In this document: positions 22,206 through 41,392 of the stretch, piece by piece | Numbering within the stretch: the first letter of the stretch is position 1 | How the letters are laid out: each line of letters starts with the position of its first letter | Assembly: GCF_004364155.1 (NCBI RefSeq) | Contig: NZ_SOAZ01000009.1 | Coordinates: forward strand, 1 to 64,000 | Origin: Fonticella tunisiensis | GTDB taxonomy: Bacteria > Bacillota > Clostridia > Clostridiales > Caloramatoraceae | Length of the DNA stretch: 64,000 nucleotides | Direction: 5' to 3' | Program-made: the position numbers and the translations under genes | Notes under the pieces: generated by a model | The model's input: only the letters and a program-made list of their open reading frames with translations | Told to the model about the DNA's origin: nothing | The model's database searches: none

Positions 22206-22206
22206 C

Positions 22207-24058: not shown

Positions 24059-24119
24059 CCCCCATACCCCCTTATATGGTATGTTTGGGCTATCGGTTTT
24101 AATCGATAGCCCAATATCA

Positions 24120-24848
24120 TTATCTATGGGCATTGTAAAATACTTCAAAGCTTCCTGCTGTGGATCCGGTGTCGAAATACAGCCTCGTGTATCTAAGATA
24201 TTTAACAGTTGCCAGTGTAACCTTTCCAGTAGATGCTGCAACAAGAGTTTCTGTGCTGTCATCTACAAAGTAATCCTCAGTGTTAACGGGAGCTATTTGA
24301 AGTTTTACTGAAACTGCTCCTGCGCCGGTGTTCCTTACATAGAAGGAATATATTACATCCTGGGAGTTGTCAATTGTAAAGGCAATACCGGTACCTGTTG
24401 AAGTTATAACTGCACTTGCTGAAGTAAATACTGCACCGCTGGAAATAGTACCTACAGTGTCTGTACCCTGTGTAAGGCTTCTGATATTGAAGTTGTTTGC
24501 ACTTACGCTTACAGTATCGGTACTTACTGACAAGCTTCTTATGCTGAAGTTGTTTGCGCTCACACTTACTGTGTCAGTGCTTACTGTAAGAGGCCTGATA
24601 TCAAAGCTGTTTGCGCTTACGCTTACCGTATCGGTGCTTACTGTAAGAGGCCTGATATCAAAGCTGTTTGCACTAACGCTTACTGTATCGGTACTTACCG
24701 ACAGGCTTCTTATGCTGAAGTTGTTTGCGCTTACGCTTACTGCACCGTTTGCATCCAAACTAAGAGACTGCAGATTTGCACCGTTTAATCCATACACCAG
24801 TACTTTTAACTGACTGGCGACATCATTAAAGACTAGATTATTAGGCAT
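24120..24848 (-). CDS. Repeat-containing DUF6385-like surface protein, 242 aa
   Basis: Begins MPNNLVFNDVASQLKVLVYG, then carries about five 19-residue repeats (consensus DTVSVSANxFxIRxLxVST, residues about 34-128) and a C-terminal beta domain ending SFEVFYNAHR like the two DUF6385-like proteins nearby. Rich in Ser, Thr, Val and Asn, with many possible O-glycosylation sites. No signal peptide or anchor. It lies 61 bp upstream of a GT2-TPR gene, which suggests enzyme and acceptor. Likely a repetitive beta structure on the cell or spore surface; function inferred. Confidence 0.75.
   Translation of the reverse strand: MPNNLVFNDVASQLKVLVYGLNGANLQSLSLDANGAVSVSANNFSIRSLSVSTDTVSVSANSFDIRPLTVSTDTVSVSANSFDIRPLTVSTDTVSVSANNFSIRSLSVSTDTVSVSANNFNIRSLTQGTDTVGTISSGAVFTSASAVITSTGTGIAFTIDNSQDVIYSFYVRNTGAGAVSVKLQIAPVNTEDYFVDDSTETLVAASTGKVTLATVKYLRYTRLYFDTGSTAGSFEVFYNAHR
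24454..24747 (-). repeat. 57-bp in-frame tandem repeat
   Basis: Five copies of a 57-bp unit encode the 19-residue repeats of the 24120-24848 protein. By protein sequence, the two central units (DIRPLTV) are identical and are flanked by two SIRSLSV units, a mirror-like order that suggests recent segmental duplication. Confidence 0.85.
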
Positions 24849-25217: not shown

Positions 25218-26408
25218 TCATCTCTTAAAGAAACTGTCAAAAACATCCTTTATTTTGTTCAGTTCATCCTTTCCCAGGCCGTGGTGGCATCCAATATAAA
25301 AACCGCTTCTGTTAATCCATTTTGCGACGGGATAGTCATCCTCAATATTTCCGAAAATCCTTTTATATACCGGTTGATTTAAAAGCGGAAGCATAGGCCT
25401 TGTCTCGATATTGTTTTTTTCCAAAAATCTCGTAAGCTCATCCCTTGTAAAGGTACTGTTTTTTCTCACAACGATTGGATACATCATAAAGGTATGGTCT
25501 ATATAGTCATTGAATTCCGGAAGCTGCAGCACGTCGGAGTATTTTTTAAGGGCTTCTGTCAGATAGCGGGCGTTTTCTTTTCTTTTGGACATAATTTCAC
25601 CTACCCTTTCAAGCTGCGCAAGGCCCAGGGCTCCTTCAATCTCCCCTATCCTGTAGCTGTAGCCAAGCCTTACAAACAAAAACCTTCTATCCATTTCCGT
25701 ATTCATTCTCTTTGGACAAACCATCCTGGGATCTGAAGCAATGCACTTTTCACATGTACAGTCCCTGCCGTGGGCAATTAAGGATCTGGCTATTTCCATA
25801 TATGTCCTGTCATTGGTTATGATTATTCCACCAATGCCTGTAGTTATGGTGTGGGCCACATAGGTGCTGGATGCTGCTAGACTTCCAAAACTTCCAACAG
25901 GCTGATTTTTGTATTTTGCAAAATGGGCTTCGGCACAGTCTTCAATCACCTTTAAATTGTATTTTTTAGCGATTTCCATTATTTCATCCATTTCACAGGG
26001 CTGCCCGAAGGTGTGTACAGGAATAATGGCCCTAGTGTTTTCGTTTATGTGTTTTTCGATTTCTGCAGGGTTTATATTGTAAGTTTTTTCATCCACATCT
26101 ACAAAAACGGGTTTAAGCCCTGCCTGAATACAGGCGTTTGAGGTGGCTATAAATGTTACTGCAGGAACCAGTACCTCCGTATTTGAATTCCAGTTTTCCA
26201 CTTCCTTTAATATCTCAAGGGCCACATGAAGTGCTGCAGTGCCACTGCTGCACATGATTCCATATTTTTGATTGTGCAGCCTTGCAAACTCCTTTTCAAA
26301 TTTTGCCACGTAGCTGCCCTGTGACAGCCTCTCACTTTCAAGGGCATCCATTACGTATTTTTTTTCAAGCTCTGTTATAGATGCACAGCCAACTCCTATT
26401 TTATTCAT
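25218..26408 (-). CDS. DegT/DnrJ-family PLP protein with His for Lys, ColD-like 3-dehydratase candidate
   Basis: Fold-type I sugar PLP enzyme (396 aa) with SSGTAALHVAL and the usual EDCAEAH. At the Schiff-base position the sequence is STYVAHTITTGIGG, so His186 replaces Lys. This is the mark of 3-dehydratases such as ColD (GDP sugars) and RfbH/E1 (CDP sugars), not of aminotransferases. A cysteine cluster C217, C219, C222, C231 follows, with C217/C219 at the same offset from the His as two Fe-S cysteines of RfbH. Next to Gmd and a fucose-synthase-like gene, it may make GDP-4-keto-3,6-dideoxymannose. Activity and Fe-S content are unproven. Confidence 0.82.
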   Translation of the reverse strand: MNKIGVGCASITELEKKYVMDALESERLSQGSYVAKFEKEFARLHNQKYGIMCSSGTAALHVALEILKEVENWNSNTEVLVPAVTFIATSNACIQAGLKPVFVDVDEKTYNINPAEIEKHINENTRAIIPVHTFGQPCEMDEIMEIAKKYNLKVIEDCAEAHFAKYKNQPVGSFGSLAASSTYVAHTITTGIGGIIITNDRTYMEIARSLIAHGRDCTCEKCIASDPRMVCPKRMNTEMDRRFLFVRLGYSYRIGEIEGALGLAQLERVGEIMSKRKENARYLTEALKKYSDVLQLPEFNDYIDHTFMMYPIVVRKNSTFTRDELTRFLEKNNIETRPMLPLLNQPVYKRIFGNIEDDYPVAKWINRSGFYIGCHHGLGKDELNKIKDVFDSFFKR

Positions 26409-26429
26409 TGAAACGCTCCTTTAAATTGC

Positions 26430-27362
26430 TTACATGTAATTTTCCTTATACCATTCTATGGTCCTTTTCAGCCCTTCCTCCAATGTCCATTTTGGAGTAA
26501 ATCCCAAAAGCTCCCTGGCCCTTTTGATGCTCGCGCATCTTCTTGGCTGACCGTTTGGTTTGCTGGTATCGTAGACGATTCTTCCCTTAAAGCCCGTTAA
26601 CCTTATTATCTTCTCAAGGAGGTCTTTTATTGTAATCTCCTCATCCGTTCCGATATTAACAGGTATTGGTTCATTTAGCTTTTCTGCAGCTAAAACTACG
26701 CCTTCTGCAAAATCCTCTGCATAGATAAAGCTTCTTGATGGTGAACCGTCCCCCCATACGACGATTTCATCCTGGTTTTCAAGGCATTTTCTAATAAGAG
26801 CTGGAATAACGTGGGAAGTATCCCTGTCAAAGTTATCCCGCGGCCCATATGCATTAAATGGAACAACCACAACAGCGTTCATTCCGAATTCCTGTCTGTA
26901 TGCCTGGGACTGCACCAGCATCATAAGCTTTGTGTAACCGTAGCTTGCATTGGTTTCTTCAGGATACCCGTTAAAAAGATCCTCTTCCTTAAAGGGTACC
27001 GGTGCGTGTTTAGGATATGAACATGCCGAGCCTATAGAAACAAATTTTTTAACCCCTTTTATCCGTGCAGCTTCCATGAGCTGTACGTTCATAATCATAT
27101 TTTTGTAGAATGAAGTGCCGGGATGCTTCTTTGTATACCCTATTCCGCCTACCACTGCCGCCAGATGGATTACCATATCCATATCCTTTACAACCTCCAG
27201 ACAGTTTTTCATTTCCGTAAGGTCATATTGAAAGCTGCGGGGGATTAATATATTGCTTTCCTTTGCACCGCGCTGAAGGAGTTTTTCAACTACGTAGGAG
27301 CCTATAAATCCGCTGCCTCCGGTTACTAAAACGTTTAAATTGTCCCATCTGAAATCTTTCAT
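26430..27362 (-). CDS. GDP-L-fucose synthase/ColC-like epimerase-reductase
   Basis: Extended SDR enzyme of about 310 aa. NADP-binding GGSGFIGSY, catalytic Ser112/Tyr141/Lys145 (GSAC, YGYTK), plus Cys114 and His184 (SHVIPAL) at the positions of the Cys/His pair that does C3/C5 epimerisation in GDP-fucose synthase. It should act on the Gmd product, or on the 3-deoxy product of the neighbouring PLP protein to give GDP-colitose. The ATG at 27362 is 9 bp from CAGGAG; a TTG 9 bp upstream touches the ribosome site. Confidence 0.88.
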   Translation of the reverse strand: MKDFRWDNLNVLVTGGSGFIGSYVVEKLLQRGAKESNILIPRSFQYDLTEMKNCLEVVKDMDMVIHLAAVVGGIGYTKKHPGTSFYKNMIMNVQLMEAARIKGVKKFVSIGSACSYPKHAPVPFKEEDLFNGYPEETNASYGYTKLMMLVQSQAYRQEFGMNAVVVVPFNAYGPRDNFDRDTSHVIPALIRKCLENQDEIVVWGDGSPSRSFIYAEDFAEGVVLAAEKLNEPIPVNIGTDEEITIKDLLEKIIRLTGFKGRIVYDTSKPNGQPRRCASIKRARELLGFTPKWTLEEGLKRTIEWYKENYM

Positions 27363-27389
27363 AGAATGCAACTCCTGAAATTGATTTAA

Positions 27390-27420
27390 GACGCTGCGAT
27401 AAAAATATATGAATTCATAC
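27390..27420. repeat. Solo terminus of the GATAAAAAATATAT palindromic element
   Basis: GACGCTGCGATAAAAATATATG matches an end of the 185-bp elements at 46370 and 49940. It lies in the gap at the 3' end of gmd and just overlaps its stop codon. Confidence 0.5.
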
Positions 27421-28440
27421 TTTCTTCAGGTCTGCCTCCATCATTATTTTTACAAGCTCCTCGAAGGTAACCCTGGGCTGCCAGCCAAGTTCCTTCCTGG
27501 CCTTTGATGGATCCCCTATTAGCAGGTCTACTTCAGTGGGTCTAAAATACCTCGGGTCAATCTCAACCACCACTTTACCCGTTTTAGAATCATAACCCTT
27601 TTCGTCTTCCTCCTTTCCCCTCCACTCAATATCGATACCAACGTATTTAAAGGCCTTTTCACAGAATTCCCTTACAGTATGGGTTTCCCCTGTGGCAATT
27701 ACATAGTCTTCTGCCTTTTCCTGCTGAAGCATAAGCCACATAGCTTCAACGTAATCCTTTGCATAACCCCAGTCACGCATGGCGTTTAAGTTGCCAAGGT
27801 AGAGCTTTTCCTGCTTTCCCTTTGCAATTCTGCATGCTGCCTTTGTAATCTTCCTCGTTACAAAGGTTTCACCGCGCCTTGGAGATTCGTGGTTGAAGAG
27901 TATTCCATTACATGCATACAGGCCGTAGGCTTCCCTGTAGTTTTTGGTTATCCAGAAGGCATAAAGTTTTGCCGCTGCATAGGGGCTCCTTGGGTAAAAG
28001 GGTGTCGTCTCCTTCTGGGGGATTTCCAAAGCCTTTCCATAGAGTTCGCTGGTTGAGGCCTGATAAAACCTTGTTTTTATTTTGGTATCCTTTATGGCGT
28101 CAAGTATCCTGAGGGTACCAAGTGCATCAACTTCAGCCGTGTATTCCGGTATATCAAAGGACACCTTAACATGGCTCTGTGCAGCTAGATTATATATTTC
28201 ATCAGGGTTTATACTATAAATCAACCTGCTTAGATTGCTGGAGTCCGTCATGTCTCCATAATGGAGAATGAGTTTCAGGTTCTTTTCGTGTATATCCTGA
28301 TATAGATGTTCTATTCTTCCAGTGTTAAAGGAACTTGAACGCCTGATTATTCCGTGTACTTCATAACCCTTCTCAAGAAGCAGTTCGGCAAGATATGATC
28401 CGTCCTGACCTGTAATTCCTGTGATTAGTGCTCTTTTCAT
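27415..28440 (-). CDS. gmd: GDP-mannose 4,6-dehydratase
   Basis: Converts GDP-D-mannose to GDP-4-keto-6-deoxy-D-mannose, the entry to fucose, colitose, rhamnose-D and perosamine. Sequence hallmarks: [25 protein letters not shown] split by the glycine-rich NADP site, [16 protein letters not shown] catalytic Tyr/Lys, and [16 protein letters not shown]. Length of 341 aa is standard. GGAGG lies 7 bp upstream of the ATG. Gmd feeds the fucose-synthase-like and ColD-like neighbours and probably the GT10 domain encoded immediately upstream. Confidence 0.95.
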
Positions 28441-28468: not shown

Positions 28469-30487
28469 TTAAATTGAGCTTATAATTCCTTCTACAACTG
28501 TATTTACAAAATTCTCTGCGCTAAAGAGGCGTATTTTTTCACTTTTGAGGTAGTTTTTTATTGCTTCAATGTATCCCATGTATTCATCGTCTGGCATGTT
28601 TTTAATATGGCTGTAGAGCTCTTCGTAGGTTGCAAATTTTCGCCTGTCGATGAATGTGTTTTCAGGAACATAATCGGTTATGTTGGGCGCTCCAAGATAG
28701 ATTGGGACACAGCCTGCGAAGAAGCAGTCAAAGATTTTTTCTGTTATATATCCTCTTATATCCCTGACGTTTTCATAGCATATGGAAAACTTATATTTCT
28801 TTAATACATCGTATTTTGATTCTATTCTTCCTTTATACGAAGGGTAATCATTACCATCTATAATCCTTCCGTCCCTTGAATATATGCTTTTATCCCAGTC
28901 CATCCCGTATAAATCGAATTCTTCGGGATGGTTATTTTCAAACCATCGGATGGCTTTAATCCTTTCGCTATATAGTTCCTGTTCATGGAATACAAGCTTA
29001 TGCCCTGCAATTAGGGTGCAAAATCCCCTTTTGTCTTCTATATTGAAATCAATCGTATCAGGAATTTTGTTTGGCCAGAAGTATTTGATGTATTTTTTAC
29101 CGTCCACATAGTCGTCATGCCATACAAATATCTTTTTAAAGTATTTATGATTTTCCACAAGCCAGTTATCGGGGCGTATAAGACTTGTTTCAAAGAGAAT
29201 CAAAAAGTTATTATCAAGCCTCTGCAGGCTTTGAGGCATGTCGCTGTATATTACAAATTCTGAAGCTGCAATATCGTTTATGTCGTGAGTATTTAGTTCA
29301 TAACCTTTTTCTTTAAGCTTTTCCCTCAAGAGATACCAGTGATAGAGACAATTGTCTCTGTTGGATATTTTATCATTTAAATCGAACATTCTGTTCCTGC
29401 AGAAAAAATCAACCGTTTGGATAGCTGCCTTTTTAAGGGCAGGTTTATCGGCATCTGCTGCCTTTTTTCTCCTCGTTCTGTGCTTTTTGCTATTATTCAT
29501 AATTGTTTCAAATGCTTTTTTCAAAACCGAAGTATATGTGTAATCCCTTGCCCTCTTATGGGATGCTTTTAAAATTTCCATCCTCTTATTTTCATTTTTG
29601 AGATAATATCTTATATTTAACTCCAGTTCATCGATGCTGCTAAATATTGCAATTTCCTTTCCTATATCAAAATAATCCTCAAGGCCCGGAGCGTACTGAG
29701 ATAGCTGGAAGCCTCCAAAGCATGGAATTTCAAAATTCCTGGCCTTTATTTGTTCCACCCTCTTGCTGCTTCTCATGTATTCATCGATGTTTTTCTCGTC
29801 ATCAAGGATGTACCTTATGTCCTTTGATACGGAGTTTGACAGGTTAAGGTTTATCTTTGAGTGCAGTATTATTTGTTTTATGTCCTCGTAGGATACCCTT
29901 CCATTTGGCCACCCTGCACCAAAACATTCAACGTTGTAGCCCCTTCTCCTTAAGTAATTAACGGCCCAGGCCCTTGAACTGCTTATACCTCCTATAAATG
30001 AGATGTCGTATTTATAATCTATATTTTCAAAGTCTATATTATCTACATAGTCGTAGGAGGCCCATTGAGAAAGGACTACATTGCTGTATCCTATTTCACT
30101 GTATTTGTCAAGGCTGTATTTATCAGTGGTTATGGACCATCGCAGCCTGGGTGCTGTGTATTTTGTAAAGCTGTCAAACCTCCAGTTGTCATCACAAAAC
30201 CAGTTGATTGTGATATATTTCTTCGAAAGTTTTTCTATGGTTTCAAGGGCAACCTCATCCCTCATCAGCACAAAAAAAACTATGTCAGGGTTCTCCCTTT
30301 TAACAAAACTTATTATCTCCCTTTGAAGTGATTCCTTATCATTTGGAAAACCGTGCTCCTCAAGCCAGAAGGGGACAACCTCCTCTCCTATATTTTTTAA
30401 AGCCGGAAGAAACCCCCTCTTTTCAAGGGATTCTCCCCTTTCGGCTATTCCATAGTCGTATTTAAGCATTACGGGAACTATTTTCAT
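28469..30487 (-). CDS. Two-domain glycosyltransferase: CgeB-like plus GT10 fucosyltransferase-like
   Basis: 672-residue fusion. Residues 1-330 resemble CgeB-type glycosyltransferases ([47 protein letters not shown]), a family first named from B. subtilis spore maturation. Residues about 365-672 match GT10 alpha-1,3-fucosyltransferases: [35 protein letters not shown] and [14 protein letters not shown]10 enzymes use GDP-fucose or close analogues, in line with Gmd and Fcl-like genes directly downstream. No membrane segment or signal peptide, so it acts in the cytoplasm. Confidence 0.85.
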
Positions 30488-30605: not shown

Positions 30606-31925
30606 TCAACGCAAATTCATAAACTCGTCAACTGCACTTGACATATAATCCAGCATTTCTTCGGTTAATCCCGGGTAGACTCCTATGAAGAAGGCCCTCT
30701 CGAGTATGGCGTTTGTGTTGTTAAGCTCTCCCTCTATCCTGCAGTTTATATTCTTATAGGCAGGATGCTTTAATATATTTCCTGCAAAGAGCATCCTTGT
30801 TTCTATAAGCTTCGATTCAAGATAGGCGATAAACTCCTTTCTTGTAAAGCCTGCATCTTCCCGTATGGTAAGGGGCAGCGCAAACCATGAGGGCTCGGCT
30901 TCCTTTAACCACCTTGGAAGTATAAATTTACTCTCATATTTTTTGAAAAGGTTGTAGAGATGGTTAAAGTTGTGCTTCCTTCTTTCCGTAAAGGAGGGAA
31001 GCTTTTTTAACTGCTCTATTCCCATGGCGCATTGGATATCAAGGGGTTTAAGGTTGTATCCTACGTTGCTGTAGACATATTTATGATCGTATCCTTCCGG
31101 AAGCCCTTCAAATTTATAATCAAACCTGTGGCCGCAGGCACCGCTTGGATTTTCCTCCCCGGTCTGACAGAAGCATGCCCGGCCCCAGTCCCTTATAGAA
31201 AGTACCTGTTTGTAAAGCTCATAATTATTGGTAAGGACAGCTCCCCCTTCACCCATCGTAATGTGATGGGCGGCATAGAAGCTGAAGGTTGACATATCGC
31301 CGAAGGTTCCGCAGAGCTTTCCCTTAAACCTTGAGTCCAGGGCATCGCAGGTATCCTCAATGACATAAAGATTGTATTTTCCTGCTATGTCCATTATTTT
31401 GTCCATATCCGCAGGGTTTCCCAGGGTATGAGCAAAGAAAATGGCCCTTGTTTTTTGGGAGATTGCCCTTTCTATCATTTCCGTGTCAATGTTGTACGTA
31501 CCCTCTTCAACATCCACAAATACGGGTGTCAGCCCATTTTGAAGGATGGGGTTAAGGGTAGTTGGAAAGGTTAAAGCTGTTGTTATTACTTCATCCCCCA
31601 TCCTTAGAGGTTTTCGGATATTTTTGGAGCAAAGGGCGCTTAAGGCAAGCAGGTTCGCAGAGGAGCCGGAGTTCGTTACAACCCCGTATTTCATTCCCAT
31701 ATACTCTGTGAAATCCTTTATAAACTCCCTTCCCCTTTTTCCCAGGGTGAGCCAGAAGTCAAGAACAGAATCCACAGCAGCTTTCATTTCCTTTTCATCA
31801 AATACCCTGCCTGAATAGTGGATCCTTGTTTTGCCGGGAATAAACTTTTTATTTTGTTCCCTTATCCTGTAAAGCTCATGTACCAAATCCAAAATTTCCT
31901 TTCTTATCTCACTTTCAGTTTTCAT
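30606..31925 (-). CDS. rfbH: CDP-4-keto-6-deoxyglucose 3-dehydrase (E1)
   Basis: PLP and [2Fe-2S] enzyme of 3,6-dideoxyhexose synthesis. FYAAHHITMGEGG places His220 at the Schiff-base position. Cys193 (EDTC), Cys251 and Cys253 (ACFC) fall at exactly the numbering of the known E1 Fe-S ligands; the fourth, Cys264, is three residues later than in E1. Length of 439 aa fits. The AAAGGTG ribosome site is upstream. No dedicated E3 reductase gene is seen in the window, so the electron donor must be a general ferredoxin or flavodoxin system or lie elsewhere. Confidence 0.93.
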   Translation of the reverse strand: MKTESEIRKEILDLVHELYRIREQNKKFIPGKTRIHYSGRVFDEKEMKAAVDSVLDFWLTLGKRGREFIKDFTEYMGMKYGVVTNSGSSANLLALSALCSKNIRKPLRMGDEVITTALTFPTTLNPILQNGLTPVFVDVEEGTYNIDTEMIERAISQKTRAIFFAHTLGNPADMDKIMDIAGKYNLYVIEDTCDALDSRFKGKLCGTFGDMSTFSFYAAHHITMGEGGAVLTNNYELYKQVLSIRDWGRACFCQTGEENPSGACGHRFDYKFEGLPEGYDHKYVYSNVGYNLKPLDIQCAMGIEQLKKLPSFTERRKHNFNHLYNLFKKYESKFILPRWLKEAEPSWFALPLTIREDAGFTRKEFIAYLESKLIETRMLFAGNILKHPAYKNINCRIEGELNNTNAILERAFFIGVYPGLTEEMLDYMSSAVDEFMNLR

Positions 31926-32006
31926 TTCATATCACCTTTAAAATTACTGATTTAATTCTTACAGAGCCATTAATCTAACCTGTTCTGTTTTGCTGCAAAC
32001 AATCGG

Positions 32007-32068
32007 AGATAAAAAATATATGAAATTCACATAAAGCATGCAATTGGAAGTTCCAGGCGAAGGAGTAT
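32007..32068. repeat. Truncated copy of the 185-bp palindromic element
   Basis: About 55-60 bp from GATAAAAAATATATG onward match the left part of the copy at 49940 with few changes, then similarity stops just before the transketolase-like gene. The other end is missing. Confidence 0.8.
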
Positions 32069-32076
32069 TACGACTA

Positions 32077-33003
32077 TTATACTGACTTCATAGTTTCTAT
32101 TATGCTCTTCAATACTCCATCCCTGTTTATCCCATATTTCTTCCTGAAATAAGAGCTGCTTCCGGCCGAATCGGCATATACATCGGGAATTCCAAATGGC
32201 TTAAAGATAAAGGGTTTTGTTATATTCCCTGCAACAACCTCCGAAACAGCTCCTCCAAGCCCACCTATTATACTGTGTTCCTCAATAGTAAAAATAGCCC
32301 TTGTTTCATGGATGCATTCCTTTATAATTTGTTCATCTATGGGCTTTATGGTGTGCATGCTTATAAGTTTTACTCCATATCCAATTCCTATTAATTCCCT
32401 GGAAACCTCAATCGCCTCCTCCAGCATGTTTCCTGTGGCTATTATTGATATATCCCTTCCCTCCATCATCTTTATGGCTTTTCCGATTTTAAAGTCTGCA
32501 TCGTCACTGTGGAGCCTTGGCTCCCCATTTTTGCTAAGCCTGATGTATGACGGCCCTGAGAGGGAAATCACCTGCTCAACCGCCCTTTGAACTTCAAATG
32601 GGTCTCCGGGGCATATAACCTTCATGTTTGGAAGCGACCTCATAATCGAAATGTCCTCTATGGCATGGTGGGTTGCTCCGGAGCTTCCGTAGCTTAATCC
32701 TCCTCCGACTCCAACGAGGCATACGTTTAAATTTTGATAACAAAGATCGTTTCTTATCTGTTCAAAACATCTCATTGTCAGAAATGGTATTATTGAGTAT
32801 ACGAAAACCCTTTTCCCAACCATTGCAAGGCCCGCTGCAGTGCCTATCATATTGGCCTCGCTTATTCCGGCGTTTATAAACCTCTCTCCAAACTCCTTCT
32901 GAAACCCTTCAAATACTGAAAAGCCAAGGTCCCCTGTAATTAAATAAAGCTCTTTATCCTGCCTTGCCATTTTCGTTAATGTATTTATAAAGGTACTTCT
33001 CAT
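32077..33003 (-). CDS. Split transketolase-like enzyme, C-terminal subunit
   Basis: 308-residue protein with the transketolase pyrimidine-binding domain. AGISEANMIGTAAGLAMVGKR contains the catalytic Glu, and a C-terminal domain follows from about residue 190. It is the partner of the N-terminal subunit encoded directly upstream (start and stop codons abut). Placed between rfbH and an SDR gene rather than with pentose-phosphate genes, it is likelier to transfer a two-carbon unit to a nucleotide sugar than to serve central metabolism; that role is inferred. Confidence 0.88.
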   Translation of the reverse strand: MRSTFINTLTKMARQDKELYLITGDLGFSVFEGFQKEFGERFINAGISEANMIGTAAGLAMVGKRVFVYSIIPFLTMRCFEQIRNDLCYQNLNVCLVGVGGGLSYGSSGATHHAIEDISIMRSLPNMKVICPGDPFEVQRAVEQVISLSGPSYIRLSKNGEPRLHSDDADFKIGKAIKMMEGRDISIIATGNMLEEAIEVSRELIGIGYGVKLISMHTIKPIDEQIIKECIHETRAIFTIEEHSIIGGLGGAVSEVVAGNITKPFIFKPFGIPDVYADSAGSSSYFRKKYGINRDGVLKSIIETMKSV

Positions 33004-33822
33004 TTAATCCAACTCCTTTAGGGCCCTTTGAAACTGCTCTTCATTTGTGGACCTGTAGTGCCATTCAAGCCTGTTTTCCATAAATGAAACCCCTCTTCCT
33101 TTTATGGTTCTGGCAATGATTGCAGTTGGAAAATCTAAACTCCCATATGCCGTGATTAGTGCGTCATATATTTCACTTACGTTGTGTCCATCTATCTCAA
33201 TTACGTTCCATCCAAAGGCTTTCCATTTCTCCCCTATAGGTTCAAGGGCTGTTATTTCATCCACTTTTCCAAGGCCCTGGAGTTTGTTGTTGTCGATTAC
33301 AGCTATAAGGTTGTTAAGCCTTTTTTGTGCTGCAAACATAGCTGATTCCCATACCGAGCCTTCATTACATTCCCCATCCCCCATTAAAACAACAGTTCTG
33401 GCATTTATATTTGAATGCTTATCCCCCAGGGCAATCCCACACCCCATTGAAAGTCCATGTCCAAGGGATCCCGTAGAGCATTCTATGCCGGGGAGGCTGT
33501 CCTTTTTTGGGTGTCCTGAAAGGGCGGAACCATCCCTGCAGTATGAATCAAGGATGCCTTTATCGAAAAAGCCCCTTTCTGCAAGGACAGCATAGAGGCC
33601 TGAAGCCCCATGTCCCTTGCTCAGTATGAATTTATCCCTCAAAGGGCTTTTTGCAGTTTCAGGGGCTATATTCAATATCTTAAAATATAGAACTGTAAGT
33701 ATATCCATCATTGATAGCGCCGATGCCACGTGGGAACTTCCTGATTTATGTGCCATTGTCACGACGGCCTTTCTTAACTCACTGGCCTTATTTTTTAAAA
33801 ATTCTATTTCCCTATCCCTCAT
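33004..33822 (-). CDS. Split transketolase-like enzyme, N-terminal TPP subunit
   Basis: 272-residue ThDP-binding half of a transketolase. Signature LSKGHGASGLYAVLAERGF, SLGHGLSMGCGIA and the TPP motif GDGECNEGSVWE...DNN. Its ATG immediately follows the stop of the upstream SDR, and its own stop abuts the C-terminal subunit, so the three are translated together. The split arrangement is known for transketolases of archaea and of many sugar-biosynthesis clusters. Confidence 0.9.
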   Translation of the reverse strand: MRDREIEFLKNKASELRKAVVTMAHKSGSSHVASALSMMDILTVLYFKILNIAPETAKSPLRDKFILSKGHGASGLYAVLAERGFFDKGILDSYCRDGSALSGHPKKDSLPGIECSTGSLGHGLSMGCGIALGDKHSNINARTVVLMGDGECNEGSVWESAMFAAQKRLNNLIAVIDNNKLQGLGKVDEITALEPIGEKWKAFGWNVIEIDGHNVSEIYDALITAYGSLDFPTAIIARTIKGRGVSFMENRLEWHYRSTNEEQFQRALKELD

Positions 33823-34767
33823 TTACATTCCCTCATACAAATCAATATTGTTTTTAAACCATTCAATGGTTTTCCTGACTCCTTCCCTTAGGGTGAACTT
33901 TGGCTCCCAGTTGAGCTCCTTTTTTACAAGGCTCATATCCGCCTCCCATTTGCTTGCCTGAACTTTCCTGTCCGGTAAAGCTCCCCATATGGGGGTCACC
34001 TTGGAACCTGACTCCTGAATTATCGTACTTGCCATTTCTTCAACGGTGTGCTGCTTGCCTAAGCCACAGTTATATATTTTTCCACTTAAACTTTTACATT
34101 CACTTAGTATTTTTGTAAGTTCAATCAAATCCTCTATGAAAATAAAATCACGAACGGCATTTTTATTTGAAAGCTTTGGATTCCTTCCCCTAAGGCATGA
34201 AAGCACTACACTCGGAACGAGCCTGGTTTTATCCTCATAATATCCAAAAAGTGAGAAGGGCCTTATGGTTGCAATGGGCAGATTAAAAGTTCTTGCAGCC
34301 ATCTGACAATATAAAGATTGAGAAGCCTTTGCAAACCCATAGGTGTTTACGGGCTCAAGGACATCCGTCTCTTTCATAGGCTCATTTTTTATGCCATATT
34401 CTGAGGAGCTTCCAAAGTTTATAAAGGATTTGAAATCAACTTTTAAACATGCGTTTACCAAATTAACGGTTCCAATTATGTTTGTGTTTATAATTTTTTT
34501 TGCATCCTCCTGATAGTAATATGCTCCGTATGCAGCTAAATGAAAAATATATTCGGGTTTTATTTTACTTAGTGCCTTATCTATGCTGTATTCATCACAA
34601 ATATCGGCCTCGAAAACCCTTATTTCCTTTATAATCCTTTTCAGTCTCCACATATTAGAGGTACTTCTTGCGATTATGTTTACCTCATAGCCTTCCTTAA
34701 CAAGGTTTTCAGCCAAACATGCACCTGCAAAACCGGCAGCTCCGGTTATCAACGCTTTTTTAGACAT
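33823..34767 (-). CDS. NAD-dependent epimerase/dehydratase (extended SDR), NDP-sugar
   Basis: SDR of 314 aa with ALITGAAGFAGACL (NAD site), FGSSSEYG and YGFAK (catalytic Ser, Tyr, Lys), and C-terminal PKFTLREGVRKTIEWF typical of nucleotide-sugar SDRs. The ATG at 34767 overlaps the end of rfbG by 8 bp and is preferred over GTG 34797. Placed between RfbG and the transketolase pair, it may reduce or epimerise a keto sugar at a late step, as YerF does in yersiniose synthesis. Exact reaction unknown. Confidence 0.85.
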   Translation of the reverse strand: MSKKALITGAAGFAGACLAENLVKEGYEVNIIARSTSNMWRLKRIIKEIRVFEADICDEYSIDKALSKIKPEYIFHLAAYGAYYYQEDAKKIINTNIIGTVNLVNACLKVDFKSFINFGSSSEYGIKNEPMKETDVLEPVNTYGFAKASQSLYCQMAARTFNLPIATIRPFSLFGYYEDKTRLVPSVVLSCLRGRNPKLSNKNAVRDFIFIEDLIELTKILSECKSLSGKIYNCGLGKQHTVEEMASTIIQESGSKVTPIWGALPDRKVQASKWEADMSLVKKELNWEPKFTLREGVRKTIEWFKNNIDLYEGM

Positions 34768-35863
34768 GTCCCTCCCCCTTACCCTCAATTTTTTCACAAT
34801 ATCTTTTTATCTGGCTGCAGCACAGCTTATAAATATCAGCCCTTTGAATAAGTCCTTTGTACCACTCAACAGTTAGATCAGCTGCCTCATCTATGTTTAG
34901 AACCGGATTCCAATTAAGACAGGTTTTTGCCTTTGTACAGTCAAGCATCAGAAGTTGTGATTCATGTGGAGCCTTTTCATCATTCAGACATATATATCCT
35001 CCATTTCCCCATTTTTCTATTATAATGTTTACAATCCTTTCAACAGTTACCACAGAGTTGAAATCAGGGCCGAAGTTCCATGGCCCGCTGTAGCTTATGC
35101 CTTCTTCACACATTTTAGATGCGAGAAGCAAATACCCGTATAATGCCTCTAAAACGTGCTGAAAGGGGCGTATGGCCATCGGGTTTCTTATCTTAATGGG
35201 CCTGCCCTCCATCAGGGCCCTTATACAGTCAGGTATAATCCTATCCTTTGACCAGTCTCCCCCTCCTATTACATTTCCCGCTCTGGCAGTGGCCAAGGCC
35301 TTACCATGACATGAGAAATCCTTCGGGTTCATAAATGAGCTTCTGTATGATGCAGTTAAAAGTTCTACACAGGCTTTGCTGGAGCTATATGGGTCATATC
35401 CTCCCAGGGGGTCATCTTCCCGGTACCCCCATATCTGTTCCCTGTTTTCATAGCATTTGTCAGTAGTTACGATGATTCCTGCCCGAACTGAGTCCGTTTT
35501 TCTTATACATTCAAGTACGTTAAGGGTTCCCATTACATTCACTTCATAGGTTTCCTTTGGGATTTCATAGGACTTTCTTACAAGCGGCTGAGCTGCAAGA
35601 TGGAACACTATTTCAGGACTAAACCTTTCAAATACCTCCATCAGCCCTTTATCGTCCCTTATGTCCCCCCTGACATCTATCATCCTATCCTTAAGGTTTG
35701 AAACCAAAAAATTGTCCTTATCGGTACAGGGATTAAGCCCATAGCCTATAACATATGCCCCGAGTTCCATAAGAAAGATCGAAAGCCATGAACCTTTGAA
35801 GCCCGTATGCCCTGTAATTAGCACCCTTCTGCCTTCATATATATTGTTAAACAGCCTATTCAT
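34760..35863 (-). CDS. rfbG: CDP-glucose 4,6-dehydratase
   Basis: Makes CDP-4-keto-6-deoxyglucose, substrate of RfbH. Markers are [35 protein letters not shown], the [18 protein letters not shown] block with catalytic Tyr/Lys, and [13 protein letters not shown], all strongly RfbG-like. The ATG at 35863 overlaps the rfbF stop (ATGAATAG), and a longer upstream reading would lack a proper site. 367 aa. Confidence 0.95.
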
Positions 35864-36635
35864 TTTGTTTCCATACCTCCCATGGGGCCCTTCCGGAAGT
35901 GTAAAGCTCCTCAAGCTTCATTTTGTCCCTGAGGGTATCCATAGGCATCCAGAAGCCTTCATGCTTATAGGCTGAAAGCTGCCCCATCCCTGCGAGCCTC
36001 TCAAGGGGTTCCCTTTCCCATGCCGTTTTATCACCATCTATGAGGCCGAAGATTTGGGGTTCAAGTACAAAAAATCCTCCGTTAATCCAGCTGCCTTCCC
36101 CCTGGGGTTTTTCTTTAAACCTTCTAACCTTATTTCCTTCAAGCTCCAAAACCCCGAACCTCTCCGGCGGTTTAACGGCGGTAAGTGTAGCCCATGTTCC
36201 TTGAAGCCTGTGAAATTCTATCAGCTTTGATATATCAACATCGCTAACTCCATCACCATATGTCAAACAAAAGGTTTCACTGCCTACATAGCTCTGCACC
36301 CTTTTCAGCCTTCCTCCCGTTAAGGTGTCTTTACCTGTATCTATTAACGTTACCTTCCATGGCTCACATCTGTGGCTGTGGATATCCATTTTGTTTTCCT
36401 TCATATCGAATGTAACTCCTGACTGGTTTAAAAAGTAGTTTGCAAAATATTCCTTAATCATATATCCTTTATATCCAAGGCATATTATGAAGTCGTTTAT
36501 TCCATAGTGGGAATATATCTTCATAATATGCCATAGAATAGGGCGCCCACCTATTTCAACCATTGGTTTGGGTTTAATTAAGGTTTCTTCGCTTAACCTG
36601 CTTCCATATCCTCCTGCAAGAATTACTGCTTTCAT
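35856..36635 (-). CDS. rfbF: Glucose-1-phosphate cytidylyltransferase
   Basis: First committed step of CDP-dideoxyhexose synthesis: glucose-1-phosphate plus CTP to CDP-glucose. N-terminal [18 protein letters not shown] with [20 protein letters not shown] is the nucleotidyltransferase signature of RfbF, and [11 protein letters not shown] holds the metal-binding Asp. 259 aa as usual. It starts the rfbFG-SDR-transketolase-rfbH series; 86 bp separate it from the upstream GT2 gene. Confidence 0.95.
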
Positions 36636-36721: not shown

Positions 36722-38137
36722 TCAGTCAACCTCGAGGCTGAATACGAAATATGCGATAGAAAGTGCACATCTACTTATTTCTTTATTTTTTATCCCGGGT
36801 AAATCAATCATGCTATCAATTATCTTTTTATCATCCTCTGAAGCCATTATTTGACACCCAACAGGAGTTATATTTTTATAGCCCAGGGTTTCAAATAGCT
36901 TTATAAGTTTATCCTTGTTATAGCAGGGATAGAAGAAATCATTTTCGCTGCACAGAGTGCCTCCGTTTATGAGCTTTATAATATTTCTAAAATAGGACTC
37001 ATTTTCCATTATAAAAATTAACTGTCCCCTATCATTTAAAAGGTTTTTTAAATCCCTAAAAATGAACTCTATATTCTGGTGCCTTTCAAGCCCCTCTTCC
37101 AAAACGATATAATCGAACCTTTCCTGCCTATAAAATTGCCTGATGTTATCCAGGCTGCCGCAAAAAACGCTTTCTGAAATGGTTTTTAAATCCGTAATAT
37201 ATTTTGGATCTTCTGTAAAGGTTGAGATGTAAACGTCCTCTACATCTATTGTCTTAAATCTGTTTTTAATCTGGAGGGGTGTACAGCCACAGAAGGTGTT
37301 TATTCCAAGTATTTTAACGGCCTGTTTTTTACGATACTCAATTGCATCCACCAGCATGGCATTGTAAAACCCATCCCTTATAATATCAAGGCCATATTTA
37401 TCCATAAAAAGCTGTCTGCTTATTGCAAGGGAGTTGAACTTTTTATGCTCTATATCCGTTGTTACTGATCCGAAATGATGAATAAAGGTATCCCCTGCAA
37501 ATATTAACTTATATCCAGCCCTTCTAACCCTGAAGCAAAAGTCATCATCGCCATATTCACCGAAGCGAAATGTTGGATCAAAGTAGCCTGCCTTTTTAAA
37601 TACCTCAGGTCTAATGATGCATACAGTAGGGATAATTCTGATTCTTTCCTCCCACTTTTTAGGATTGGATTTGTTATATTCCTTTGCAAACTGCTGCATT
37701 TCTTCCAAATTGCTGTAATCTGCGCTGATCATTTGATGGTTATCTATTACATTAGCCCCTGCAGCTGCCATTCCTATCTTTTTGTCCGATTTAATACATT
37801 TTAGAAGATTATCCATCCAGTTCGTTGTAAGTATTGTGTCATTTCCAACTATGGATATATACCTTCCCCGGGAGGCTTTAACGCCTGCATTAAACCCATT
37901 CCACTGTCCAACGTTTTTTTCAAAATTAATCACCTTTGCACCGGGTAGGGATTCAAAATACTCTTTAGTTCCGTCACTTGAGCCATTATTTACTGCAATT
38001 AACTCAAAATCAATGTGTGATGTGTATTTATATATGCTTTCTATACAGAGCTTTGTGTATTCAAGGTGATTATATGCAAGTACAATAATGCTTACCAGAG
38101 GTTTCTTCTTTTTACCATTACCCATAGAGGCTTCCAT
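36722..38137 (-). CDS. GT2 glycosyltransferase fused to a methyltransferase-like domain
   Basis: 471 aa. The N-terminal GT2 domain (about 10-270) has VSIIVLAYNHLEYTKLCIES, VNNGSSDGTKEYFE, an NDTILT motif in place of DxD, and GEYGDDDFCFRVRRAGY. Residues about 280-471 resemble a degenerate SAM-dependent methyltransferase (VKILGINTFCGCTPLQIK, FDYIVLEEGLERHQN, RDLKNLLNDRGQLIFIME). The glycine-rich SAM loop is altered, so activity is uncertain. The start at 38137 follows GGTGG and lies one base after the upstream stop. Confidence 0.82.
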   Translation of the reverse strand: MEASMGNGKKKKPLVSIIVLAYNHLEYTKLCIESIYKYTSHIDFELIAVNNGSSDGTKEYFESLPGAKVINFEKNVGQWNGFNAGVKASRGRYISIVGNDTILTTNWMDNLLKCIKSDKKIGMAAAGANVIDNHQMISADYSNLEEMQQFAKEYNKSNPKKWEERIRIIPTVCIIRPEVFKKAGYFDPTFRFGEYGDDDFCFRVRRAGYKLIFAGDTFIHHFGSVTTDIEHKKFNSLAISRQLFMDKYGLDIIRDGFYNAMLVDAIEYRKKQAVKILGINTFCGCTPLQIKNRFKTIDVEDVYISTFTEDPKYITDLKTISESVFCGSLDNIRQFYRQERFDYIVLEEGLERHQNIEFIFRDLKNLLNDRGQLIFIMENESYFRNIIKLINGGTLCSENDFFYPCYNKDKLIKLFETLGYKNITPVGCQIMASEDDKKIIDSMIDLPGIKNKEISRCALSIAYFVFSLEVD

Positions 38138-38138
38138 T

Positions 38139-39419
38139 TCATCTTCCACCGCCTTTCAAAACATCAAGGGCTTCAAAGGCCCCGATCACCATGTTATCCT
38201 TATACTCCATAAACTCCTTCTCAAGGAGATCTATAGAATTCTTCCAGGTGTACATCTTTGCAGTTTCAAGCCCTTTTTCAATTAATCTCTTCCTGAGGTT
38301 TCTGGATTTTAAAAGCATCTTTATCTTTTCAATTAGCTGATCAACATTTCCTGCCTGATACATGAGGCAGTTTTCATTATCCACAGCGTATTCCTTTACC
38401 CCCTCATTTGATGTTGTAATAACTGCCGTACCACATGCCATTGCTTCAAGTGGAGGAAGTGAGAAGGCCTCGTAGTATGACCCTGAAATATATATTTCCG
38501 AATGTCTGTAGAGCCAGCCAATTTCATCCTGTGTTGGGCAGACATGATATGCAATATTAATCCCTGTCCCTCTAAAGTCCTTTTCAGGGAGTACTGGAAT
38601 AATCCATTTTACTTTAAATTTATACCCTTCCTTTTTCAAATGGTAGAGGGCTTTAATTATATCCTCATGACCTTTGAATTTCAGCGCATCGCTTCCAACC
38701 AGGAGTATTTCAGGAGGGTTGTTGCCCCTGTTTTTCCCTGCGTAAAAAATGCCTTCATCAATTGCATTTGGTATCAGTACAGACTCTCTGCCATACAGCT
38801 CCTTCAGCCTTTTTTGCATGATCTTCGACACTGTTAGGATTTTTACAGGGAGAGAATGGGCTGTTGTCACAGCATTTTTAAAATAATCGGGCAGGGTGTC
38901 ATATTCAAATATATCTATATCACCCTGGGCTATATAATATTTCATTGGGGCTTCTGCTTTCATGACATCTGCAATCAAATCCCAGTAGCCTGCAATTATT
39001 AAATCAATTCCGGATACCATTTCATAGAGGTCTCTGTCAGATGGTACCTTAAAATATCTGCATTTAACATCAAGCCACTCCGGTCTTGGAAAGTGGCTGT
39101 AGAGCACAACGTTGTGCCCCCTGGTATAGAGATTGTTAGCCTGTTCTATAAGAATTTTGTATCCGCCGGTAATCAGATTATGTGGAAGAAGGTATCCAAT
39201 ATTTAAGTGTTTTTTTTCTTTAAGATATTCAAATTTTATGAAGGAATGTCTATATCCCATGGATTCCAGCTTTTTTATGCTGGAATTAATTTTTCCTTCA
39301 TCCTTATCTATTAAACCTGTGTTTAAATCATAAATAGGGTGTCTATTATTACAAATACTTAGAAGCTCGCCCATTCTTTTGCTTGCATATTCTTCCTTCA
39401 ATTTCTGATAGTCAATCAT
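38139..39419 (-). CDS. GT4-family glycosyltransferase
   Basis: GT-B fold retaining glycosyltransferase (426 aa). LNIGYLLPHNLITGGYK is an N-terminal GT4 start, LIPNAIDEGIFY precedes the second Rossmann domain, and YYEAFSLPPLEAMACGTAVITT is the EX7E nucleotide-sugar motif. No membrane helix. First gene of the 17-kb minus-strand glycan cluster; a CATATTATA box lies about 50 bp upstream of the start. Confidence 0.9.
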   Translation of the reverse strand: MIDYQKLKEEYASKRMGELLSICNNRHPIYDLNTGLIDKDEGKINSSIKKLESMGYRHSFIKFEYLKEKKHLNIGYLLPHNLITGGYKILIEQANNLYTRGHNVVLYSHFPRPEWLDVKCRYFKVPSDRDLYEMVSGIDLIIAGYWDLIADVMKAEAPMKYYIAQGDIDIFEYDTLPDYFKNAVTTAHSLPVKILTVSKIMQKRLKELYGRESVLIPNAIDEGIFYAGKNRGNNPPEILLVGSDALKFKGHEDIIKALYHLKKEGYKFKVKWIIPVLPEKDFRGTGINIAYHVCPTQDEIGWLYRHSEIYISGSYYEAFSLPPLEAMACGTAVITTSNEGVKEYAVDNENCLMYQAGNVDQLIEKIKMLLKSRNLRKRLIEKGLETAKMYTWKNSIDLLEKEFMEYKDNMVIGAFEALDVLKGGGR

Positions 39420-39589
39420 GCCACCACATCCTTACCTGTGTCAAAATTACATCGTACATTCTCCTTTATATAATATGCTGGGATTTTTTTTGTGTAGACT
39501 TTATACGACAAAAACAAATAAACAAAAATTGTCATATTATGTATAAGGGTTTGGATAGGGTGTGTTCTAATATAAAGGGGGCGATTGGA
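39420..39589. promoter_or_regulatory. Divergent control region with two sporulation-like -10 boxes
   Basis: Between the GT4 and GT2-TPR genes. The minus strand has CATATTATA (39469-39477) and the plus strand CATATTATG (39533-39541). With the similar box at 24917, these resemble the sigma-K -10 consensus CATAnnnTA. No sigma-A promoter with standard spacing is evident here. Tentative. Confidence 0.4.
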
Positions 39590-41392
39590 GTGTCTTTAAG
39601 TTTATGCATGATCGCAAAAAACGAGGAAGAAAATATAGGAAGGGCTCTAGAGAGCGTTAAGGATATCGTTGACGAAATGATTGTAGTAGATACGGGTTCA
39701 ACGGATTCAACGGTTAAAATTGCAGAAAGCTATGGCGCAAAGGTATATTATTATGAATGGAATAACAACTTCAGCGATGCAAAGAATTTTGCCCTTGAAA
39801 AAGCAGCGGGAGACTGGATTTTGCTGATGGATGCCGATGATGAACTGGTAAGGGAAGATAAACAAAAGCTTCTGGATTTACTAAAAAATGCGGATTATGA
39901 TGTGTATTTCATGGATACTTTAAGTTTCGTTGGAGATAGGCCGGGAAACGACATCGTTATGAATATAAACGTAAGGCTTATAAGAAATGGAAAGGGAATT
40001 AAGTTTTCAGGTGCCATACATGAGCAAATAGGCCCAGGCTCGGGTGGAACTGTTGAAGATTTAAAGATGAGGTCTGAAAGGATAAGGTTTAACCATTATG
40101 GATATTTAAATAAGAATGTAGTAGATAAGAATAAGAGAAGAAGAAATATAGAGATCCTTGAAAAAGAGCTTGAAAATGACAATAATAACGGCTTTTTACT
40201 TTTTGGTATGGGCAATGAGTATTTTGCCCTTCACAACTTTGAGAAGGCCCTTGAATATTATAATAAAGCCTATGAAAACTTTAAACCCGATCTGGGATAC
40301 AGTCCAAAGCTTATCATAAGGATGGTAATGACCCTTCATGAGCTTAAGAAATATGATGAAGAACTGGATATGATTGAAAAGGGCCTTAAATATTTTCCAG
40401 ACTTTACTGACCTTGAATATTTAAGGGCTTGCTTATTTCACAGGTTGGGAAGGTATACCCTTGCCATCAAGTCCCTTGAAAAATGTATAAACCTTGGAGA
40501 GCCTAAATCCTATTTAAACTTTATTGTAGGCGTTGGAACCTTTAAGCCATATCATGCGCTTGCTGAAATTTATTTTGATATGGGTGATTATCAGGAAGCC
40601 TATAATTGCTGCATAAAGTGTTTAAAAATAAAGCCTGATTTCTATCCATGCTTCGAAAAAATTGCTCAAATATATTTTAAGGCAGACGATAGAAATAAGG
40701 AGATGGATTATATAAAAAGACAGCTTGAAAGCTTATTTAATGGGAATCTGGATGGTCCGGCCTATCTCACCCTTGGGGATGTTTTTTTCAGCCATGGGAG
40801 GTATGACATTGCTTACGACTATATAATCAAGGCCGGAGAATTTCTGGAGGAAACAGAAACAATATCTTTTTACAAGGGTATGTGTTTGTTTCATATGAGA
40901 AACTATCGAGAAGCTCTAAAATATTTTAAGAAAGTTAAATCAGGAGAATTTTATGAGAAAGCCCTATATAAAATGGTTATGTGCGAGGTTTTTGAAAATA
41001 AAATGAACGCTGCTGAAAATCTTCTTAATAAAGCAAAGGAGTTTACTAACGATAGGGTTAGGCATGTTTATAAAACATTTAAAAGCCTGGTTGAGGGCAA
41101 GATGTGTAAAACTATAAGTTCTGACAGAGTAGAATCTACAGTGTATTTGAATATAATTTGCGATTTGCTTAATACCCTTCTTAAGGTGTCAGAGTTTGAA
41201 ATATTTGAAAAATCCCTTCAGCTTCTAAACCTCATTGAAAGCGATGAGGTGCTGCTCAGGCTTGCAAAGATTTATTATGTAAATGGTTTTCAGGAAATGG
41301 CCTTTAAGGAATTCATTAGATCAATAAAGGTATTTGATAAAATCGATATTGAAGGGCTTGATATGATGAAGAAAATTGTATTAAAGGTTTAA
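39590..41392 (+). CDS. GT2 glycosyltransferase with C-terminal TPR repeats (copy 2)
   Basis: Paralogue of the gene at 22253-24058, same length (600 aa). The GT2 domain has SLCMIAKNEEENIGRALES, VVDTGSTDSTVKIAESYGAK and LLMDADDEL, followed by many TPR-like helices and an identical-looking end (LLNLIESDEVLL, AKIYYVNGF). The GTG at 39590 is 8 bp from AAGGGGG; longer frames lack a site. It is divergent from the rest of the cluster. Probably a protein glycosyltransferase acting on a cytoplasmic acceptor. Confidence 0.88.
   Translation: MSLSLCMIAKNEEENIGRALESVKDIVDEMIVVDTGSTDSTVKIAESYGAKVYYYEWNNNFSDAKNFALEKAAGDWILLMDADDELVREDKQKLLDLLKNADYDVYFMDTLSFVGDRPGNDIVMNINVRLIRNGKGIKFSGAIHEQIGPGSGGTVEDLKMRSERIRFNHYGYLNKNVVDKNKRRRNIEILEKELENDNNNGFLLFGMGNEYFALHNFEKALEYYNKAYENFKPDLGYSPKLIIRMVMTLHELKKYDEELDMIEKGLKYFPDFTDLEYLRACLFHRLGRYTLAIKSLEKCINLGEPKSYLNFIVGVGTFKPYHALAEIYFDMGDYQEAYNCCIKCLKIKPDFYPCFEKIAQIYFKADDRNKEMDYIKRQLESLFNGNLDGPAYLTLGDVFFSHGRYDIAYDYIIKAGEFLEETETISFYKGMCLFHMRNYREALKYFKKVKSGEFYEKALYKMVMCEVFENKMNAAENLLNKAKEFTNDRVRHVYKTFKSLVEGKMCKTISSDRVESTVYLNIICDLLNTLLKVSEFEIFEKSLQLLNLIESDEVLLRLAKIYYVNGFQEMAFKEFIRSIKVFDKIDIEGLDMMKKIVLKV

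Follow-up and report, generated by a model that had tools for sequence, protein, structure and literature searches.

A split transketolase in a CDP-deoxysugar operon of Fonticella tunisiensis as a candidate C4-branching enzyme

Why should the two halves of a transketolase be encoded in the middle of an operon for a cytidine diphosphate (CDP)-linked deoxysugar? The question is raised by a stretch of the Fonticella tunisiensis genome (contig NZ_SOAZ01000009.1, positions 1 to 64,000; the window hereafter, 64,000 nucleotides in full) in which tkN and tkC, the genes of a split transketolase, stand with rfbF, rfbG, rfbH and the gene of an extended short-chain dehydrogenase/reductase (SDR). In yersiniose synthesis the thiamine diphosphate (ThDP) enzyme YerE is followed by an SDR, YerF. 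The initial annotation had proposed that here the transketolase pair takes the place of YerE, transferring a ketol unit, and that the SDR then reduces the product to give a C4-branched 3,6-dideoxy sugar. We find that this is the best-supported reading at the genome level, and we put at about 0.6 the probability that a ketone-accepting transketolase enables the operon to produce a C4-branched CDP-deoxysugar that goes into a surface glycan.

The six genes were confirmed at the coordinates that they had been given, are collinear and all lie on the minus strand. The first, rfbF (35856..36635), encodes a glucose-1-phosphate cytidylyltransferase (NCBIfam TIGR02623, 450.7 bits, curated cut-off 300.25) and is followed by rfbG (34760..35863; start read from the sequence), encoding a CDP-glucose 4,6-dehydratase (TIGR02622, 484.7 bits, cut-off 278.45), the SDR gene (33823..34767), whose product is the proposed branch-ketone reductase, tkN (33004..33822), tkC (32077..33003) and, last in order, rfbH (30606..31925). 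RfbH is a CDP-4-keto-6-deoxyglucose 3-dehydrase of the E1 type (NF011936, 615.9 bits, cut-off 423) that aligns to the E1 dehydrase 3bcx with 451 bits and keeps its AHHITMGEGG stretch, and the window therefore holds both the 4,6-dehydratase and the E1-type 3-dehydrase of a yersiniose-type pathway. From rfbF through tkC every junction overlaps or abuts: rfbF and rfbG share 8 bp (rfbG ATG at 35863, rfbF stop at 35858-35856), rfbG and the SDR gene another 8 bp (SDR ATG at 34767, rfbG stop at 34762-34760), SDR and tkN meet at 33823/33822 and tkN and tkC at 33004/33003. A gap of 151 bp separates tkC from rfbH. For rfbG and the SDR gene the open reading frame (ORF) list gives starts, TTG at 35914 and GTG at 34797, that precede the likely ATGs.

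By its domains and its ThDP-catalytic residues the pair is a split-type transketolase. TkN matches Transketolase_N (PF00456, 144.4 bits; best PDB match 6yak), TkC matches Transket_pyr (PF02779, 119.6 bits) and Transketolase_C (PF02780, 78.1 bits; best PDB match 6yaj, 220.3 bits), and together they keep H26, H66, H100, D155, E160, N185 and H261 (TkN) and R358, S385, E411 and H473 (TkC) of Escherichia coli TktA. In transketolases H100 contacts the donor hydroxyl, H473 is also a contact residue, and R358, S385, H461, D469 and R520 serve the phosphate site. It is at the last of these that TkC departs from TktA, with H461 replaced by Gly, D469 by Ser and R520 by Lys, in addition to F434 by Ile, leaving only R358 and S385 of the pentose-phosphate pocket. 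We take this change to count against a pentose-phosphate enzyme and not against membership of the transketolase fold family. The column of E. coli Y440 shifted between alignments and was not used.

Is the altered pocket an accident of one gene or the mark of a lineage? A contig scan with the TkC sequence alone gave 87 relatives, of which 80 loci were kept, and a tree was built, without the seven diagnostic columns, from 76 rows having both halves, comprising scan loci, E. coli TktA, the F. tunisiensis pairs (three) and three loci from the survey described below; L074, with a partial TkN, was left out by hand, and ten loci without an adjacent TkN were also excluded. The window falls in a single clade holding 29 of the 76 rows (approximate likelihood ratio test of the Shimodaira-Hasegawa type, SH-aLRT, 98). 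Residues were counted over 32 TkC rows, these being the 29 tree rows plus L022, L038 and L041, which have TkC only, with no adjacent TkN, and were assigned by hand. H461 is Gly in all 32, D469 is present in none, F434 is Ile in 31, and R520 is Lys in 18 and Arg in 11. The catalytic positions E411 and H473 are kept in 32/32 TkC and N185 in 29/29 TkN rows. In the rows defined by keeping H461 (n=23), D469 and R520 are each kept in all 23. An engineered E. coli transketolase, according to the title of PDB entry 5hht, carries Ser385Tyr/Asp469Thr/Arg520Gln, and these same three positions vary in the window's clade. Record titles of clade members name Aenigmatarchaeota, Pacearchaeota, Omnitrophota, several Patescibacteria lineages, Gastranaerophilales, Kiritimatiellia, Spirochaetales, Paenibacillus, Alphaproteobacteria and Elusimicrobium, although individual taxon assignments may be wrong because most members are metagenome-assembled genomes (MAGs), and L016 and L019, the archaeal ones, come from MAG contigs and are possibly mis-binned.

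Split transketolases of other kinds also came to light. A second odd clade of 14 rows (L080-L086, L088-L092, L094, L095) mostly shows the order SDR - tkN - tkC - DegT - nucleotidyltransferase-like, and has Arg at H26, Ile at H100, Ser at D469 and Ala at R520 in 14/14. In L135, L136, L138 and L139 the His at H461 is kept, the canonical GEDG stretch is absent (THGGLTTGAGPTHYGQED and similar) and no sugar-nucleotide genes were scored nearby.

If the window pair has lost the pentose-phosphate pocket, does another transketolase serve the cell? Four Transketolase_N matches occur in the genome (3.10 Mb, 99.49% complete), one in the window and one each on contigs C1, C13 and C5. The weak C5 match (24.3 bits) is 1-deoxyxylulose-5-phosphate synthase (DXS; TIGR00204, 834.8 bits, cut-off 465.95). 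C1 carries a canonical split pair that keeps R358, S385, F434, H461, D469, H473 and R520 of TktA. A further split pair (C13:40444-42254), with Asp at the place of H461, lies in a myo-inositol cluster with IolD (TIGR04377, 1009 bits) and IolE (TIGR04379, 448.1 bits) and branches next outside the odd transketolase group in the tree. Thus the window pair is not the sole transketolase of the genome, split pairs being present on C1 and C13, and because the C1 pair is canonical and the pocket is changed across the whole clade, we rejected the housekeeping transketolase as the main explanation, in agreement with the initial annotation. The search for a YerE-type enzyme, which is acetohydroxy acid synthase-like (AHAS-like), found none in the genome, where the single TPP_enzyme_N match is IolD on C13.

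What company does the clade keep? As markers we used phmmer relatives of the window's RfbF (at least 100 bits), RfbH (at least 300 bits) and Gmd (at least 400 bits) in fetched DNA of up to 10 kb on each side, the thresholds having been chosen after the locus listing had been seen. A marker is present at 14 of 28 clade loci, against 0/22 loci with H461, 0/14 of the Pseudomonas-type clade and 0/16 others. Similarly, 20/31 clade loci, and 0/22 loci with H461, have a same-strand gene of the SDR superfamily no more than 1.3 kb away, the matches including rfbG, gmd and fcl-like genes. The order of the genes varies, being rfbF-rfbG-SDR-methyltransferase-tkN-tkC-rfbH in L021, rfbF-rfbG-rfbH-tkN-tkC-SDR in L032, rfbF-SDR-tkN-tkC-rfbG-rfbH in L103, rfbF-rfbG-tkN-tkC-SDR in L122 and gmd-fcl-like-tkN-tkC-SDR-RfbH-like in L031, L037 and L066. 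Transketolase pairs stand near a methyltransferase gene cluster in L020-L023, and in L020 and L021 its members have the C-terminal domain of a C-methyltransferase, which may point to additional methyl branching.

A survey of 398 genomes of the phylum, with up to five candidates per genome scored, approached the linkage from both sides. Searched with a profile of the clade (A1), the window came first, followed by G176:C3, G206:C1 and G380:C1, each of which lies, among the matches listed, less than 1 kb from a TIGR02622 gene and has Gly at H461 (3/3); TIGR02622 itself exceeded its cut-off in 36 of the 398 genomes, at 39 places among the matches listed. The rough chance of such proximity is 2e-4 per gene if genomes of 2.6 Mb are assumed. 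These neighbors, together with the recurrence of the gene set in altered orders at loci found through TkC, lead us to conclude that the operon reflects more than chance. From the other side, 38 dehydratase loci besides the window's were fetched from 35 genomes, and a transketolase pair was found in three of them (L103, L122 and L133), an AHAS-like gene (at least 70 bits to IolD) in seven, and both in L133. Three of the seven AHAS-like proteins were checked, with best PDB matches 5ahk for L110 (423 bits) and 8rph for L106 and L133, which we take to be the YerE-like enzymes PpYerE and JanthE; all three are under the acetolactate synthase cut-off, as expected of YerE-like enzymes. That structures of PpYerE and JanthE exist is stated in a review (PMC12247030).

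The SDR provides further evidence. It matches Epimerase (PF01370, 158.7 bits), has a YxxxK motif and is modeled with a mean predicted local distance difference test score (pLDDT) of 94.9. In a tree of 37 SDRs from the collected loci (FastTree, without support values) it groups with those of L103, L021, L016, L040, L026 and L027, all with transketolase pairs, and with that of L110, in which rfbG, rfbH, the SDR gene and an AHAS-like gene stand in a row. The link between SDR and transketolase in L016, L021, L026, L027 and L040 is one of selection, because those loci were found through TkC; L103, with a transketolase, and L110, with a YerE-like enzyme, are the only group members that came from the dehydratase survey, free of that selection. 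L110, in our view, is a case in which the ThDP enzyme has been naturally swapped next to a reductase of the same kind. What does the SDR itself do? Dehydratases have an acid pair where the window SDR carries GSSSEYG, which speaks against its being a dehydratase (the L025 SDR shows STDEVYG there). A fold search was of no use as a test of function, since it matched epimerases and dehydratases alike; the reductase 2pk3 was among the sequence matches and not in the best 50 fold rows, and neither fold nor sequence separated reductase from epimerase.

In the pathway that we propose, RfbF makes CDP-glucose, RfbG converts it to CDP-4-keto-6-deoxyglucose and RfbH probably removes O3. TkN/TkC, with its ThDP site intact and a pocket that appears unsuited to phosphorylated 2-hydroxy-aldoses, would draw on a ketol donor and move two carbons, as a ketol (glycolaldehyde) unit, onto the C4 ketone of the CDP sugar, and the expected adduct is a tertiary alcohol with a hydroxyacetyl branch. 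The adjacent SDR would then reduce the branch ketone, giving a 4-C-(1,2-dihydroxyethyl)-6-deoxy or 3,6-dideoxy hexose, a C4-branched CDP-deoxysugar presumably destined for a surface glycan. The replacement of YerE by a transketolase, as first suggested, is thus supported by the altered pocket of the clade, by a genome in which the search for a YerE-like enzyme found none and by the occurrence of the same type of SDR beside a YerE-like enzyme in L110; we infer the ketol donor and the CDP acceptor, as we do the product, the stage at which O3 is removed and the use of the sugar in a glycan. The interpretation in the initial annotation is supported in part. It makes the product a 3,6-dideoxy sugar, and RfbH passes its cut-off, but 3-deoxygenation may be dispensable, as L122 and L133 have a transketolase, rfbF and rfbG and no rfbH relative within 7 kb. 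This fits an action of the transketolase on the C4 ketone itself, with 3-deoxygenation possibly a separate step.

Several observations weigh against this pathway. One concerns RfbH, for the E3 reductase partner of an E1 dehydrase (DdhD type) carries a FAD_binding_6 domain, and no match to that domain (PF00970) was found in the 99.49% complete genome, although a control search gave matches in 8 of 14 genomes; RfbH would consequently need another electron donor. Others concern the clade. Gly at H461 is also found in the Pseudomonas-type clade (14/14) and elsewhere, so it is not peculiar to CDP loci, and half of the 28 clade loci, some of them on short contigs, show none of the three markers. Where such genes are present they are often distant from the known families: nine dehydratase-like genes of clade loci were scanned and gave TIGR02622 as the best family in every case, but seven are below its cut-off, with L032 and L048 above, and five of the seven RfbF-like proteins are below the TIGR02623 cut-off, with L025 and L032 above, from which we conclude that part of the clade accompanies diverged relatives of these enzymes. 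Ranks 4-8 after the window in the survey (G096, G283, G029:C14, G176:C34, G205) include none beside a TIGR02622 match listed at 1e-60; four of them keep His at H461, and the fifth (L137, from G029) has Gly and no rfbF or rfbG relative. A transketolase pair and an AHAS-like gene coexist in L133, and the window SDR could be an epimerase. Finally, in L024 and L028 a DegT-family gene takes the place of the SDR directly upstream of tkN; it is preceded by an acetyltransferase-type gene, hinting at an amino version of the sugar. The same two loci have a second tkN/tkC-like pair downstream, with a short tkC ORF (168 aa).

Could the acceptor be another nucleotide sugar? Downstream in the window lie gmd (27415..28440, minus strand), a guanosine diphosphate (GDP)-mannose 4,6-dehydratase gene that would start a second 6-deoxy sugar route (TIGR01472, 615.4 bits, cut-off 415), a GDP-fucose-synthase-like SDR gene of uncertain start (26430..27371, minus strand; NF047922, 246.7 bits, below the cut-off of 500) and a second RfbH/ColD-like 3-dehydrase gene (25218..26408, minus strand; NF011936, 275 bits, below the cut-off of 423), whose product has His at the place of the pyridoxal phosphate lysine, as read from its alignment to 3bcx and perosamine synthetase. 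This set (25218-28440) suggests a route to a GDP-3,6-dideoxyhexose, and a comparable second set stands beside the transketolase operon of L032. The transketolase might, then, act on GDP-4-keto-6-deoxy(-3-deoxy)mannose and not on the CDP sugar. The uninterrupted gmd - fcl-like - tkN - tkC - SDR - RfbH-like rows of L031, L037 and L066 favor this, as do L039, which has a comparable set but no gmd found on its contig, and L025 and L032, where both routes occur; for L031, L037, L066 and L039, family scans covered the Gmd and the SDR of L031. In the window, however, tkN and tkC abut the SDR gene, which in turn overlaps rfbG, and rfbH and a glycosyltransferase gene intervene between tkN/tkC and gmd. 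Furthermore, in L103, L122 and L133 a transketolase goes with CDP genes, and no gmd relative was scored up to 7 kb from rfbG. We consider a GDP sugar an unlikely acceptor in F. tunisiensis.

Could the transferred unit be acetyl? A transketolase-fold enzyme might instead take an acetyl (acetaldehyde) unit from pyruvate and build the 1-hydroxyethyl branch of a yersiniose-type sugar. TkC is about as near in fold to DXS (Z 39.7) as to a split transketolase, 6yaj (Z 40.1), the DXS of this genome likewise lacks the His of H461 while retaining Asp at D469 and Arg at R520, and a YerE-type enzyme does occur once, in L110, beside the same kind of SDR. With such near-equal values the fold search decides nothing about function and we set it aside as a test. 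On the other side, TkN is clearly transketolase-like (266.2 bits to 6yak versus 32 bits to the best DXS chain), and 28 of the 29 clade rows retain H100, whereas the DXS of this genome has Phe there. It is on account of H100 that we favor a ketol over an acyl donor, and acetyl transfer seems to us as improbable as a GDP acceptor.

Is the pair simply an additional transketolase, providing pentose, tetrose or heptulose phosphates, for instance for a heptose, and tied to the operon by position only? The ThDP site is intact, and four clade members (L017, L027, L033, L035) carry a gene cluster whose member in L017, PfkB plus cytidylyltransferase, is HldE-like, a further observation that sits uneasily with a branching enzyme. 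Yet the C1 pair already provides R358, S385, H461, D469 and R520, all 32 clade rows have Gly at H461 and no D469, and the linkage to 4-keto-6-deoxyhexose genes recurs in changed order, all of which make a supply role rather doubtful. Least probable is that the SDR directly reduces CDP-4-keto-3,6-dideoxyglucose, as for abequose or paratose, with the transketolase making some other compound: among the SDRs that score best outside the window's group is indeed that of L105 (177 bits), an rfbH-rfbF-rfbG cluster with no transketolase or AHAS-like gene scored within 7 kb, and five of the eight SDRs in the group are linked by selection through TkC, but L110, the sole other member without a transketolase pair and not chosen by a ThDP gene, adjoins a YerE-like enzyme.

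Glycosyltransferase genes flank the operon. After rfbH comes the glycosyltransferase gene mentioned above (28469..30487, minus strand), a candidate sugar user with a Glyco_trans_1_2 domain (PF13524, 82.1 bits) and a GT10-like C-terminus (PF00852, 51.7 bits), and upstream of rfbF is a family 2 glycosyltransferase (GT2) gene (36722..38149, minus strand; PF00535, 72.5 bits). Further away, at 20891-24848, are three DUF6385 proteins, one of which (24120-24848, minus strand) bears tandem short repeats, with a protein combining GT2 and tetratricopeptide repeats (TPR) beside them at 22253-24262 (minus strand) and a second GT2 and TPR protein at 39383-41392 (plus strand). These are possibly glycosylated surface proteins and their transferases.

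How does the proposed branching enzyme compare with known systems? Yersiniose A of Yersinia pseudotuberculosis (YerE, YerF) shares with it the CDP-4-keto-3,6-dideoxyglucose route and a two-carbon-adding ThDP enzyme, but YerE is of the decarboxylase type and adds acetyl, whereas the window has a split transketolase from which hydroxyacetyl is expected. The two-chain fold is that of the Carboxydothermus hydrogenoformans split transketolase (6yaj, 6yak), the best match to the window pair in both sequence and fold, although in its C-chain the THAGLTVGEDGASHQ stretch and RLGRSGVP stand in place of the window's VGGGLSYGSSGATHH and RLSKNGEP. In PMC12247030 YerE is described as a ThDP enzyme that acts on CDP-3,6-dideoxy-4-keto-D-glucose and adds two carbons, and enzymes of the alpha-keto acid dehydrogenase type (aldgamycin, kosinostatin, kibdelomycin) as also performing ThDP-dependent C2 branching of keto sugars; the latter belong to another ThDP superfamily, use pyruvate as donor and serve secondary metabolism. 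In the open-access literature, to which our search was confined, we found nothing bearing on the question besides that review; archaeal split and fused transketolases are the topic of PMC11237513. The closest parallel, unnamed in the initial annotation, is a precedent for the idea: for the synthesis of miharamycin and amipurimycin, split transketolases have been put forward as the enzymes that pass hydroxyacetyl to a keto sugar, just as we propose for the window pair, and 13 such candidates are known, all from Streptomycetes and none characterized in vitro (PMC12247030). Those enzymes serve nucleoside antibiotics, while the window's clade occupies CDP- and GDP-sugar loci of many phyla, a comparison made by description only. 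New here is a transketolase in the position of YerE, at CDP- and GDP-sugar loci that the review's Streptomycetes set does not include.

The window pair may stand for more than one operon. We give an even chance to the proposition that the whole clade, spread over many bacterial phyla and contigs binned as DPANN archaea, works as a ketone-accepting enzyme that branches CDP- and GDP-4-keto-6-deoxyhexoses in general. If true, it would constitute a third ThDP route to branched nucleotide sugars, next to those of YerE and of the alpha-keto acid dehydrogenase type; hydroxyacetyl or dihydroxyethyl branches would by this route be placed in surface glycans. Ketone-accepting transketolases have been proposed yet are unproven; the clade supplies many more candidates, with an acceptor predicted from well-known enzymes, and the reaction thereby becomes directly testable. 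Should the reading be right, these transketolases would be catalysts of tertiary-alcohol formation with a hydroxyacetyl donor, and surface glycans would contain a new kind of branched deoxysugar.

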